Below are positions 3,289 through 8,807 of a stretch of 45,334 nucleotides of DNA, in pieces (positions within the stretch are counted from its first letter, which is position 1; every line of letters begins with the position of its first letter). This stretch comes from Bacteroidales bacterium (GTDB taxonomy: Bacteria > Bacteroidota > Bacteroidia > Bacteroidales > JAADJA01). The DNA lies in NCBI GenBank assembly GCA_016933115.1, contig JAFGBL010000066.1:1-45334 (forward strand). Reading direction: 5' to 3'. The position numbers and the translations under genes are program-made. The notes beneath the pieces are model-generated. The model was not told where the DNA came from. It worked only from the letters and a program-made list of their open reading frames with translations, and made no database searches.

Positions 3289-4323
3289 TTAATTTTCGAG
3301 AAAAAATAAGGTTATCCAATTAGCTAAATAGGAAAGGAATTCATTAAAAGTAGTCAGGTAATCATTGCGGTTCCAAATATTAACTTTTGTTTGTATGGAA
3401 GAATCAGCAAAGTAAACAACTCCCACATCCATATTGTCTCCTAAAACTTTTCGGTAAGTCACCCATGTCCGTCGGCTATGGATTCCGGAGGTCACAACAT
3501 TGATGTTATCCACATTTTTTAATGAACTGGAATTTTTAAACGCCAAGGCAGCTTCCCTCGTTTTATTTCGAATTTCATGATTAAATCTGATTATACAAAT
3601 TCTAGCGCGATCAATGCCCAATTTAACAAGATAATCAGCTACCTCATCAGCCAGCGAAATATATCCGGTTGTTTTGCAGTTTTGTTCCCTCGTAATTTCA
3701 ACACTGGCAGTTCTGGGAAAAATCACAAAATCATCAACTCTTACCGCACCGATATTCAGGTTGCGGTCAGCCTCTTCTGTCCCGAGGTCATTGTTAAAGC
3801 GGATTGCGATTGAATTAAATTTTTCAATTGGAAGAATGTACTGAAAGATGTATTCCTGTTCATTTTCCGTCGTAAAGTTCCCGCCAATAATATGGCCTTC
3901 AACTACAACATTAAAGTGGGCAAATTCACCCCCAGCCTGCTGACCTTTGGCTTCAATAGATACATGAAGGGTATCGCCTTTCCGATAAGATGGCTTATCA
4001 GGCAATTGAATAATCAGGGAAGAGTTGGTATATAACCAGATCCCATTCTCATCGACAAGATTGTAATCTTTTAATGCAAAAGGAAATTCAAAATCATCCG
4101 GATATTCCATTCCAACCAGAAAAAAACGGTTTTCCGGATCTGATCCGAATTCCTGAACTGCCTGTTCGATCTCAAAAGCAGAGATCCAGGATTCTAACAA
4201 AATATTATGGGTAGAGACCGGCTTTTTAAATTTCAGGAATCGCGGCAACGCCCATCCTGATAACAACAACAATAGGATGAGCGACAAAATAACCAAAACA
4301 ATAATTCGAACCGGTCTTTTCAT
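3289..4323 (-). CDS. Membrane-anchored protein with carbohydrate-binding-module-like middle region and YdcF/ElyC (DUF218)-like C-terminal region
   Basis: N-terminal TM segment; middle region resembles a beta-sandwich CBM (DTLHVSIEAKGQQAGGEFAHFNVVVEGHIIGG); C-terminal RNKTREAALAF...NVVTSGIHSRRTWVTYRKVLG resembles DUF218/YdcF. Confidence 0.55.
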   Translation of the reverse strand: MKRPVRIIVLVILSLILLLLLSGWALPRFLKFKKPVSTHNILLESWISAFEIEQAVQEFGSDPENRFFLVGMEYPDDFEFPFALKDYNLVDENGIWLYTNSSLIIQLPDKPSYRKGDTLHVSIEAKGQQAGGEFAHFNVVVEGHIIGGNFTTENEQEYIFQYILPIEKFNSIAIRFNNDLGTEEADRNLNIGAVRVDDFVIFPRTASVEITREQNCKTTGYISLADEVADYLVKLGIDRARICIIRFNHEIRNKTREAALAFKNSSSLKNVDNINVVTSGIHSRRTWVTYRKVLGDNMDVGVVYFADSSIQTKVNIWNRNDYLTTFNEFLSYLANWITLFFLEN

Positions 4324-4327
4324 CAGA

Positions 4328-4699
4328 TCAGCGTGTTAATTGAGATCTAAACTCATCGAAGGCTTTTTCTATAACATCGTCCACTTTTTCATGGAATGCA
4401 TCAAAAGCCTGAATAAGTTTCCTGCCTTCGGGTGTCAGGCTCATTTTGCCTCCTTCTTTCCCTCCCCTCTCCTTATCCAAAATGGTAAATCCCAGCATTT
4501 CTTCGATCTTTTTCAAATCGCCCCAGGTCCTTCGGTATGTTATACCCAAAGCAACAGTTGCACCTTTCAGTGAACCGTGTTCTTCAATAGCCTTTAAGAT
4601 TTGCCTTTTCCCATCGCCCAAAATTCCTTCATCTTTATCGTTAGAAAGCCATATTTTGTAGTTGAACCTGATATGCTCGGGTAATAAATTCTTTGCCAT
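4328..4699 (-). CDS. ModE-like winged-helix transcriptional regulator (DNA-binding domain only)
   Basis: 123 aa; LLxxIxxxGSLxxAxxxLGxxYRxxWxxL and GGKEGGKMSLTPEGRKL pattern of the ModE N-terminal HTH; no C-terminal Mop/molbindin domain. Confidence 0.8.
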   Translation of the reverse strand: MAKNLLPEHIRFNYKIWLSNDKDEGILGDGKRQILKAIEEHGSLKGATVALGITYRRTWGDLKKIEEMLGFTILDKERGGKEGGKMSLTPEGRKLIQAFDAFHEKVDDVIEKAFDEFRSQLTR

Positions 4700-4936: not shown

Positions 4937-5893
4937 ATGAATATCATAACAAATATTTTAAAATACTTACTTATCCTGTCCATTATTTTTTTATTTTCGG
5001 ATTGCATCCATACGAAAAGCAATAATACCCTCACCATTTTTCATGCCGGAAGCCTCAGCAAACCGTTTAATGAAATGAAGGATGCTTTCGAAAAAAAGCA
5101 TCCGGATGCACAAATATTACTGGAAGCTGCCGGCAGCCGCGAATGCGCCCGTAAAATTACGGAACTGGGCAAAAAATGTGATATCATGGCGTCATCAGAT
5201 TATACGGTGATCGAAGATTTGCTTATGCCCGAATTCGCAGACTGGTACATCAATTTCTCCGGAAACGAAATGTGCATCGCCTTCACCGAAAAGTCAAGGC
5301 TGAAAAATCAAATCCAGGCAAATAACTGGCCCGATATCCTGCTTAACGATTCAGTTAGTTACGGCCGTTCCAATCCCGACCTCGACCCGTGCGGATACCG
5401 CACCATCATGATTTTTGACCTGGCCGAACAATTTTATCACAAACCCGGTTTGCAGGAACAACTATTAAAAAAAAATCAGAAATATATCCGCCCGAAAGAG
5501 GTTGACCTTCTGTCGCTGCTTGAGAGCCATGCCATCGATTATATCTTCATATACCGGTCGGTGGCGGTCCAGCACGAATTGAATTTCCTGGTGCTTCCCG
5601 ATTCCCTTAACCTTGGAAATCCATCCCTCGAAGATTTTTATCAAACCTCGCGGGTAAAAATTTCGGGTAAAAATCCGGATGATAAAATTGAAAAAAAAGG
5701 TGAAGCCATGGTATATGCCTTTACTATCCCTAAAAATGCGCCAAATAAAGATATGGCAGCAGAATTTGCCCGTTTTATTCTTCAACCAAACGAAGGGCAA
5801 AAAATCATGAAGGACAACGGACAAGCCGTTTTTATTGACATCAAGGAAAATTTTAACGATAAAATACCGGAAAATTTAAAATCTGATCAATGA
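4937..5893 (+). CDS. wtpA: Tungstate/molybdate ABC transporter substrate-binding lipoprotein, WtpA-type
   Basis: FHAGSLSKPFNEM..FEKKHPDAQILLEAAGSRECARKITELGKKCDIMASSDYTVI..LMPEFADWYINF.GNEMCIAFTEKS and SNPDLDPCGYRTIMI-type motifs characteristic of WtpA; N-terminal lipoprotein-type signal. Confidence 0.88.
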   Translation: MNIITNILKYLLILSIIFLFSDCIHTKSNNTLTIFHAGSLSKPFNEMKDAFEKKHPDAQILLEAAGSRECARKITELGKKCDIMASSDYTVIEDLLMPEFADWYINFSGNEMCIAFTEKSRLKNQIQANNWPDILLNDSVSYGRSNPDLDPCGYRTIMIFDLAEQFYHKPGLQEQLLKKNQKYIRPKEVDLLSLLESHAIDYIFIYRSVAVQHELNFLVLPDSLNLGNPSLEDFYQTSRVKISGKNPDDKIEKKGEAMVYAFTIPKNAPNKDMAAEFARFILQPNEGQKIMKDNGQAVFIDIKENFNDKIPENLKSDQ

Positions 5894-5903
5894 ATTGACA
5901 AAT

Positions 5904-6992
5904 ATGAAGAGAACAAGAATTTTCACTTACCTTTTGGCCTTCATCATAATGCTTGCAGGCTGCACCCAACCGGTGAAAAATATAAAGTCCGAAGAAAAAA
6001 TGATGCAGGACCAGCCGATTACAGAAGCCGATACCGAAGACACCACCAATTATTTTTACGATAATGCCGAATCTTACTCCCTATCCTTGAACCCCATAAC
6101 CGTGGAGGGAGAAATCGAGGAATCGGGCGAAGTGGATTTCTCCAAATTCCCCCTTCATACCGTAATTGTTAAAGAAGCCCTGTTATCGGACAACGGAAAC
6201 AAATTTATCGGCGCTTACCGGTACGACGGATACTCACTCATGGATATTTTGAATCACAAAACCATTGATAAAGCCAATGCCAAAGAATTTGAGCCCATTA
6301 TCGACCTGTTTGTTGAAATTGCAAACGAACAGGGCGAAAAAGTGATCGTGAGTTGGGGGGAGATTTATTATCCCATTCACCTCCATGAAATTTTGATCGC
6401 AACCCGGGTGATGCGGATCATACCTTCCAAAACCAACGATCTCTGGCCTTTGCCAACAGAAAGCAAACTGGTGGTCGCCTCCGACCTTCTTACGGAAAGA
6501 AATATTTCAGCGCCCTCGAAGATTACTGTGAGATCCTATCCCAGGTCATTCGAAACCATCAAAGGAAAAAAACCTTTATTCTCAGAGAAAATCGATTTTA
6601 TACAAGGGGATGAGGTATTGCTGACTCTTGATAAATCACCCGATCATTTACCAATGATGAACTATGAGAGTATCTTTTACGGTCGTGGCCGGGGAATTCA
6701 CAGTGCCCAGCCTTTCCACGGGACCTTGCTAAAACAGATCCTGGAACCCTACATTGATATCACCGCTCAAAACCTGAAAGAAGGTTTTATTACAGTGAAA
6801 GCGGATGATGGCTATCGTGGCTTATTCACTGTGAGTGAGGTGATGAACCGGAACGACCAGTCGGAGGTGTTGCTGATTTACCATTCAGAAGAAGAAGATG
6901 GAGGCAGTTTCCGGCTTTACCCTGCCTGCGATTTCTTTTCCGACAGAGCCATCAAGGCCATTTCGGAGATTTATTTGGAACTACCGGAATGA
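5904..6992 (+). CDS. Lipoprotein with apparent (possibly duplicated) oxidoreductase molybdopterin-binding-like domain, in the tungstate operon
   Basis: Lipobox LAGC. VEGEIEESGEVDFSKFPLHTVIVKEAL..GAYRYDGYSLMDILN resembles the sulfite-oxidase-fold Moco-binding domain; a second related segment (GRGIHSAQPFHGTLLKQILEP) suggests duplication. Lies between wtpA and wtpB. ATG at 5904 preferred to TTG at 5895. Confidence 0.6.
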   Translation: MKRTRIFTYLLAFIIMLAGCTQPVKNIKSEEKMMQDQPITEADTEDTTNYFYDNAESYSLSLNPITVEGEIEESGEVDFSKFPLHTVIVKEALLSDNGNKFIGAYRYDGYSLMDILNHKTIDKANAKEFEPIIDLFVEIANEQGEKVIVSWGEIYYPIHLHEILIATRVMRIIPSKTNDLWPLPTESKLVVASDLLTERNISAPSKITVRSYPRSFETIKGKKPLFSEKIDFIQGDEVLLTLDKSPDHLPMMNYESIFYGRGRGIHSAQPFHGTLLKQILEPYIDITAQNLKEGFITVKADDGYRGLFTVSEVMNRNDQSEVLLIYHSEEEDGGSFRLYPACDFFSDRAIKAISEIYLELPE

Positions 6993-7786
6993 ACCATGTT
7001 CACAAAATAAAGATTTTTGATGTGCTGTTAGTGTTGGGCGGCGGCCTTGCGCTGATGTTCATAGTTGCACCGTTGTTAAGCCTGTTTTTGCAAACATCAC
7101 CCACCTCTTTTTTTGAAACGGCAAAGGATACTGAGGTGCAGTTGAGCATTGGCCGGACTTTACTTATCTCTTTTCTGGGAACCCTGGTGCTTGCAGTTTT
7201 TGCCATACCTTTGGCCTATTTGCTGGCAAGGAAAAACTTTCCCGGTAAAAAGTTGATAATTTCTTTCATTGACCTTCCCATCATCATTCCACATTCGGCT
7301 GCCGGGATTGCCCTGCTGGGATTTATTTCACGTGATACGGTTGTGGGAAAATTTGCCTCTTTTTTTGGTATTGAATTGGTTGGCAACCCTGTGGGGATTG
7401 CTATGGCTATGGCGTTTGTCAGCATTCCTTTTCTGATCAATGCAGCCCGGGACGGGTTTTTAGCAGTTCCCAGACGCTTCGAGCATGCAGCCCGGAATTT
7501 GGGAGCCTCACCTGCCCGGGTCTTTTTCACCATCAGCCTGCCACTGGCCTGGCGCAATATTTTGTCTGGACTTGTTTTGATGTTCGGAAGGGGAATGAGT
7601 GAATTCGGAGCAGTAGTGATCATCGCGTATCATCCGATGATCACGCCGGTTTTGATCTATGAGCGGTTCACCCAATTCGGGCTGAAATATGCACAGCCGG
7701 TTTCCGCTGTTTTTATTTTAATATGCCTGGCCTTTTTTATTCTTTTCAGGATGCTAACCCTCAAAACAGACAAACAAAATGCTTAG
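6989..7786 (+). CDS. wtpB: Tungstate/molybdate ABC transporter permease
   Basis: 265-aa TM protein; permease EAA-like loop EHAARNLGASPARVFFTISLPLAWRNILSGLVLMFGRGMSEFGAVVIIAY typical of ModB/WtpB; 4-nt overlap with the upstream CDS. Confidence 0.87.
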   Translation: MNHVHKIKIFDVLLVLGGGLALMFIVAPLLSLFLQTSPTSFFETAKDTEVQLSIGRTLLISFLGTLVLAVFAIPLAYLLARKNFPGKKLIISFIDLPIIIPHSAAGIALLGFISRDTVVGKFASFFGIELVGNPVGIAMAMAFVSIPFLINAARDGFLAVPRRFEHAARNLGASPARVFFTISLPLAWRNILSGLVLMFGRGMSEFGAVVIIAYHPMITPVLIYERFTQFGLKYAQPVSAVFILICLAFFILFRMLTLKTDKQNA

Positions 7787-8807
7787 CATTCGCAATCTGT
7801 CGAAAAAGTTCGGTACATTTTCATTAGAGGATATCAAGCTTGAGGTGAATACAGGCGAGTACTTTGTATTGCTGGGACCCTCCGGTGCAGGTAAATCATT
7901 GCTGTTTGAAGTGATTGCCGGAATCTATAAACCCGATGCTGGTGAGATTTTTTTAAATGGCAAAGAGATTACAAACATACCTCCTGAAAAAAGGGAAATA
8001 GGGTTGGTTTTCCAGGATAATACGCTGTTCCCACACTTTTCAGTTTTCGAAAATATTGCTTTTCCTTTAAAAACAAAAAAACTCAATCGCAACCAAATCA
8101 GGGAAAAAGTTGAAAATCTGGCTGTTGAACTCTCTATCGGTCATTTATTGGAAAGAACATTGCATTCACTTTCCGGAGGTGAAATCCAAAGGGTTACGCT
8201 TGCCCGGACGCTGGCAGGTGATCCCAAATGCCTTTTGATGGATGAACCGGTTTCGTCGCTGGATGTTCAGCTTCGTGGCGGTATCCTCGAGTTATTGAGA
8301 AAGATCAATCAACAGGGTTTGACGATCCTGCATATCACCCATCATCTGGATGAAGCTGTTTACCAGGCAAACAGGATGGCAATCATCGATAAGGGGAAGA
8401 TCATTCAGATAGGAAAACCTGAAGAAATTTATTCAAAACCGGCCTCTGAATTTGTCGTAAATTTTCTGGGGTATAAAAATGTTTATCCCTTTGAAAAAAT
8501 TTCTGAAGAAAAGATTTCAATTTTAGGGCGTCTGGAAATTAACTTTCCCCAAATCAAGGTTTCAAAAGGCTATGTTGTAATCCCGGACTATGCCATAAAT
8601 ATATTATCAAGTCTGAAAAAAAACTCAAATATTTTTCCTTGCACCATTAAGTCACAACGACATTTTCCGGAGTTTATAGAGCTTGTTATTGATTCCGGAA
8701 TTACACTTATCAAGAAAATTGAAGGAATGTCGGTAAATTTAATAACGGAAGAAAAATTATATGTTTCAATCGATGCAGGCAGTTTGATTTTCCATGATTT
8801 CCAATAA
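7779..8807 (+). CDS. wtpC: Tungstate/molybdate ABC transporter ATP-binding protein
   Basis: Walker A GPSGAGKS, signature LSGGEIQRVTLARTLA, Walker B CLLMDEPVSSLD; overlaps wtpB by 8 nt. Confidence 0.85.
   Translation: MLSIRNLSKKFGTFSLEDIKLEVNTGEYFVLLGPSGAGKSLLFEVIAGIYKPDAGEIFLNGKEITNIPPEKREIGLVFQDNTLFPHFSVFENIAFPLKTKKLNRNQIREKVENLAVELSIGHLLERTLHSLSGGEIQRVTLARTLAGDPKCLLMDEPVSSLDVQLRGGILELLRKINQQGLTILHITHHLDEAVYQANRMAIIDKGKIIQIGKPEEIYSKPASEFVVNFLGYKNVYPFEKISEEKISILGRLEINFPQIKVSKGYVVIPDYAINILSSLKKNSNIFPCTIKSQRHFPEFIELVIDSGITLIKKIEGMSVNLITEEKLYVSIDAGSLIFHDFQ

Follow-up and report, generated by a model that had tools for sequence, protein, structure and literature searches.

Entry of tungsten and molybdenum into bacteria has so far been described as import of the free oxyanions through ABC importers, and the known accounts of how tungstate and molybdate are taken up name no other kind of system (PMC5517513; PMC11980592). 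The known WtpABC-type transporters comprise A, B and C components only (PMC5517513). The nearest analogue in layout to the system treated here is the B12 uptake machinery of Bacteroides (BtuB-BtuG-BtuH-BtuFCD), in which a TonB receptor, accessory lipoproteins and an ABC importer serve one scarce nutrient (PMC6143338; PMC8941943), although its proteins and its cargo are unrelated. Tub of Eubacterium limosum is likewise an accessory protein for tungsten use, but it is set apart from the protein studied here by its description, which gives it a role in storage and not in uptake (PMC11980592). With regard to fold, the relevant enzymes are those of the SUOX family (sulfite oxidase/dehydrogenase, MsrP/YedY; PF00174), in which the metal is ligated by a Cys (PMC9370002).

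This article examines a lipoprotein (LP) encoded in a wtp operon of a Bacteroidales bacterium, taking as starting point a stretch of 45,334 nucleotides of its DNA (contig JAFGBL010000066.1, hereafter the window). The operon resembles the known transporters in carrying wtpA, wtpB and wtpC in order, but differs from them in that the A and B genes flank one for a fourth, envelope protein, and in that relatives add a TonB receptor and further lipoproteins. Neither an uptake system containing LP nor TonB-mediated entry of tungsten or molybdenum was found described in the literature searched. The reading preferred here, which we regard as probable by a narrow measure, is that LP assists tungsten/molybdenum uptake from within the periplasm without acting as an enzyme, handing a metal species to WtpABC.

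Organization of the locus

LP is encoded on the forward strand at positions 5904-6992 (362 aa; ATG start, TGA stop), with an in-frame TTG at 5895 as a possible alternative start, and is present as a single copy in the window's genome. Its signal peptide and lipobox (MKRTRIFTYLLAFIIMLAGC; 5904-5963, +) end in LAG|C20, and the residues TQPVKN follow directly after the Cys. Upstream, across a gap of 10 nt, lies wtpA (4937-5893, +), whose product, a tungstate/molybdate-binding protein, scores 311 bits with TIGR03730, above the cut-off of 243. Downstream, the genes for the permease WtpB (6989-7786, +) and the ATPase WtpC (7779-8807, +) have NF040839 and NF040840, respectively, as best matches, both below the cut-off. 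LP and wtpB overlap by 4 nt (ATGA, 6989-6992). The initial annotation of this region had called a lipoprotein gene between wtpA and wtpB and an ATGA overlap with the latter; the open reading frame, the lipobox LAGC and the curated models for the neighbours bear out the former, and the sequence itself the latter. LP gave no significant match against Pfam, NCBIfam or the sequences of the PDB, the sole Pfam hit being DUF6694 (E 0.005), which is under the cut-off and covers the signal region.

Divergent from the operon, a gene at 4328-4699 (-) encodes a ModE-type N-terminal DNA-binding domain (TIGR00637, 73 bits, below the cut-off of 98.5) and is likely the operon regulator. The protein is composed of the DNA-binding domain alone, without a metal-sensing domain. 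In an operator search of the upstream regions of the window and of one further locus (L020), no common palindrome stood out. Four nucleotides from the ModE-domain gene lies another gene (3289-4323, -), coding for a protein with a single-pass N-terminus, a CBM60 domain and then a weak DUF218 match; the same gene pair adjoins the operon in a second genome (G010, locus L011).

Predicted fold and conserved residues

An AlphaFold model of LP, built from 77 homologues (pLDDT 89.8, pTM 0.84), gave four Foldseek matches at E <= 0.001, all of them SUOX proteins: 2c9x and 2blf (sulfite dehydrogenase), and 1xdy_B and 1xdy_G (YedY). Their E values range from 5e-5 to 1e-3 with probability 1.00 and low TM-scores (0.27-0.37), and values near 1e-4 are not decisive alone, because the model of the operon's other lipoprotein matched unrelated beta-rich proteins and sulfite dehydrogenase at 1e-3 to 1e-5. 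The two halves of LP were also compared by hhalign with four family alignments of PF00174 proteins from other Bacteroidota, with 40 column shuffles as the null. Against the mixed SUOX alignment each half beat 40 of 40 shuffles; for the subsets, the N-terminal half exceeded all shuffles with the MsrP-like set and the C-terminal half with the sulfite-oxidase-like set, and the comparisons with the remaining SUOX subsets were not significant.

Model secondary structure, hhalign and motif counts place the N-terminal SUOX-like half at 6036-6536 (+; residues 45-211) and the C-terminal one at 6570-6989 (+; residues 223-362). The two modelled halves share the order strand-strand-strand-helix-strand-strand-helix-strand-strand-strand, the C-terminal half having one more strand and one more helix. 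The motif D-[LF]-x-[ST]-[DE]-R is found in both, at 194-199 (D194-L-x-T-E-R199) and at 343-348 (D343-F-F-S-D-R348, in the half that also contains FYGRGRGIHS), and an invariant Glu stands at matching places (153 and 312). The half-to-half profile score was not significant, 10 of 150 shuffles being as good, and the alignment extended over 102 columns as against 49 in the longest null alignment. The initial annotation had suggested one or two SUOX-like domains; the model, Foldseek and the profile comparisons support the duplicated form, and we consider it quite probable that LP, as a predicted and not a solved structure, is a tandemly duplicated SUOX-like fold.

While LP is like the SUOX enzymes in fold, by model and profiles, it differs from them in its two tandem domains, the lack of a fixed Cys, a PF00174 score below threshold and a lipoprotein signal. 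No Cys column is invariant in the 77 homologues, the commonest being residue 342 (Cys in 48 of 77), and the only fixed Cys of the mature protein is the lipidated one. The doubt voiced in the initial annotation about a Moco-ligating Cys was thus well founded, and Moco is not expected to be held the way SUOX enzymes hold it. None of the 77 members passed the PF00174 cut-off, weak contact being seen in seven (best E 0.015), and one weak match taken in full reached 12.6 bits, the cut-off being 24; PF00174 searches of LP-carrying genomes did not pick LP up either.

That LP is a true sulfite-oxidase-family molybdo- or tungstoenzyme, made within an uptake operon by happenstance, would agree with the Foldseek matches to sulfite dehydrogenase and YedY and with the Moco-synthesis genes close by. 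We nevertheless hold this to be very improbable in view of the absence of a fixed Cys, the failure of every member to reach the PF00174 cut-off and the Sec signal of a lipoprotein, whereas periplasmic Moco enzymes usually carry a twin-arginine signal. An origin of LP as a paralogue of a local SUOX enzyme was ruled out, since PF00174 searches of the window's genome and of 60 relatives found no member of that family. In the genomes of one Bacteroidota family (f60; G069, G091, G095, G130, G165 and others), short proteins (about 185-270 aa) with weak PF00174 matches are unlike the usual SUOX enzymes.

The invariant or near-invariant polar residues of LP are K90, E91, W151, E153, R199, H266, R305, E312, R316, D318, D343 and R348. 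Their number would suit an enzyme that acts on an imported chelate to free the tungstate or molybdate in it and whose catalytic site is formed by the acidic residues and arginines of the twin motifs, and the TonB receptor gene linked to LP (see below) suggests an imported cargo larger than a bare oxyanion. Such an activity appears unlikely, as LP has neither the metal-ligand Cys nor a recognised catalytic motif, and a binding site would fit the residue conservation equally well. A binding accessory, which the initial annotation had put before an enzyme, is the likelier reading here, with LP as a presumed ligand binder.

Gene neighborhood

A pattern scan of named genomes yielded 249 homologous stretches, and 80 loci among them were retained. 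LP-bearing genomes are mostly Bacteroidota metagenome assemblies. One bears a Fibrobacterota title (L090), and LP there is again downstream of a TonB receptor plug protein; a few bear titles of other phyla (Alphaproteobacteria L077, Aminicenantes L073, Chlorobiota L042), of which L077 at least may be misbinned, since it is nearly identical to a Bacteroidales sequence. The neighbors in the 80 loci include WtpC (41), WtpB (40), WtpA (35), a TonB receptor (29) and a second lipoprotein (25), as well as MoeA (16), MOSC/MoCF (15), the ModE domain (14), MoaA (14) and MoaC (12), with identities confirmed by Pfam on L014, L016, L018 and L077. The longest operons (L054, L076, L077, L085, L093) have the order ModE-wtpA-lipoprotein-secreted protein-TonB receptor-LP-wtpB-wtpC-moeA-moaA-moaC, with a type IX sorting domain on the secreted protein.

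Genes for wtp components are found at 42 of 79 LP loci, and either these or a TonB receptor gene at 50 of 79; LP directly adjoins one or the other in 49 of the 79 and the receptor in 29. The order of LP and the wtp genes varies, which indicates that the association is conserved and the position is not. The initial annotation had taken LP for a fixed part of the ABC operon: the linkage stands, but strict fixity does not, as 29 of 79 loci have neither a wtp nor a TonB-receptor gene in view. An isolated insertion is ruled out by the recurrence of LP with kindred neighbors in many species, and chance is excluded because the homologues that recur beside the same neighbors are at 30-63% identity. 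This recurrence beside uptake genes, often together with an outer-membrane receptor, probably reflects an aid in catching scarce metal.

The Moco genes within the operon bear on the possibility that LP binds the whole pyranopterin cofactor (tungstopterin/molybdopterin), perhaps one pterin per SUOX-like domain, in a system that scavenges the cofactor or strips its metal. SUOX-type folds are pterin-binding folds, and tandem halves with matched invariant motifs would suit a two-pterin ligand. We think this improbable, since moeA, moaA and moaC in the operons imply that the cell makes its own cofactor, and the cofactor is unstable outside proteins.

Two further gene types occur in these loci. An alginate-export-type outer-membrane porin (PF13372) is encoded within the wtp/LP operon at L022 (5518-6759), L026, L027 and L067, without a TonB receptor in view at L022 and L027 and together with one at L026 and L067; it is possibly an alternative outer-membrane door. 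Two small genes, conserved in two distant loci, lie between the ModE gene and the lipoprotein/TonB receptor genes (L043, 742-1482 and 1424-1999; L018, 6298-7570), one product beginning MRILIGIDDTDNLDSRGTGFRSR and the other being a membrane protein.

Co-occurrence with WtpA and tungsten enzymes

Among 295 genomes of the order, LP was found in 56, one of which (G389) is known by a 35-column fragment only. WtpA is present in 54 of these 56 genomes versus 42 of the 239 without LP (Fisher p 6e-30, a value that is descriptive only, since kin species are not independent), in line with the link to wtp foreseen by the initial annotation. Of the 32 genomes checked in which no wtp gene directly adjoins LP at its locus, 28 have wtpA elsewhere.

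In a set of 60 related genomes, LP is present in 10. The tungsten aldehyde:ferredoxin oxidoreductase family (AOR) is represented in all 10 of these and in all 19 genomes with WtpA, and none of the 32 AOR-less genomes contains WtpA or LP. The 15 genomes with PF00384 proteins, a family that covers non-molybdenum proteins too, and without AOR have neither WtpA nor LP. AOR genes are also located within four LP loci (L045, L047, L077, L097; domain checked on L077). Together, this pattern and these genes point to tungsten more than to molybdenum.

The window's genome, which is 88% complete and in which 17 of 115 candidates were scored, gave no TonB receptor of the subfamily linked to LP. In a genome of the same genus (G005), LP-wtpBC occupies one site, and wtpA lies near such a receptor about 50 kb off on the same contig. 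The absence of the receptor in the window's species and its separation from LP-wtpBC in G005 suggest that LP is retained alongside WtpABC when the receptor is lacking or has been lost.

A group of 17 LPs (L044, L051, L056, L072, L074, L081 and 11 more) sits among sugar-acid genes and not metal genes, the neighbors being KDPG aldolase-like and GntP-like (by eye) and DUF4147/MOFRL kinase and ABM (by Pfam). In the tree, these LPs group as a single clade (100/99) that is nested within the metal-context members and adjacent to two LPs that adjoin a TonB receptor, and for 15 of the 17 the genome encodes WtpA elsewhere. The simplest interpretation is that LP moved once and kept its function; the clade may also have acquired an altered one.

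These distributions also bear on whether LP, without binding any small ligand, could serve the receptor or WtpBC structurally or in assembly, as a scaffold or docking lipoprotein. Translational coupling to wtpB at this locus, through the ATGA overlap, and the receptor directly next to LP at 29 of 79 loci would fit such a role. It seems an unlikely one, given that LP is accompanied by no such receptor among the candidates scored in the window's genome, that a whole LP clade lies away from wtp and that the conserved residues would resemble ligand sites and not surface patches.

Cellular location

In Bacteroidota, the Cys of surface lipoproteins is followed by K-(D/E)2-like signals (PMC5080379). 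At least two acidic residues at positions +2 to +6 are present in 3 of 46 LPs (those with a recognised lipobox only) versus 19 of 27 for the operon's other lipoprotein; WtpA is like LP as to the residues after the lipid Cys, and certain LPs (e.g., L077) have a signal peptide and no lipobox. The LP of the window has no acidic export signal (TQPVKN), and LP is therefore most likely periplasm-facing. From the surface or periplasmic placement given in the initial annotation, the former is thus rejected and the latter is likelier.

The operon's other lipoprotein (L077, 5716-6618, +; cluster of 35) usually lies just upstream of the TonB receptor gene and carries the acidic export signal. The L077 protein has a beta-sandwich model and no Pfam match, and fold comparison gave no specific match. 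It is a candidate surface metal-complex binder; BtuG has a surface-export signal and LP does not; by location, this other lipoprotein is the BtuG-like one.

Proposed role in metal uptake

In the preferred reading of LP as a non-catalytic periplasmic accessory, the TonB receptor and the surface-type lipoprotein of the longest operons would carry tungsten/molybdenum species through the outer membrane. LP, facing the periplasm, would bind these species (free oxyanion, chelate or pterin complex) and pass them to WtpA, and WtpBC would import them. In the window's species, whose genome gave no such LP-linked receptor, LP would act with WtpABC alone. As cargo of the TonB receptor, a chelate or pterin complex would account for the energised route better than a bare oxyanion. 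A more specific proposal, which we put forward as tentative and rather doubtful, is that Bacteroidota possess a dedicated TonB-dependent outer-membrane route for tungsten, as a metallophore complex or pterin cofactor, and that LP receives it in the periplasm, having arisen from a SUOX enzyme domain through duplication and loss of the metal ligand to become a binder of the cofactor or chelate.

If true, the operon of TonB receptor, lipoproteins and WtpABC would amount to energised, selective capture of the metal at the outer membrane, and in LP the fold of an enzyme would have come to serve as a carrier. The gene set named here makes the competition of Gram-negative tungsten users for a very scarce metal directly testable.
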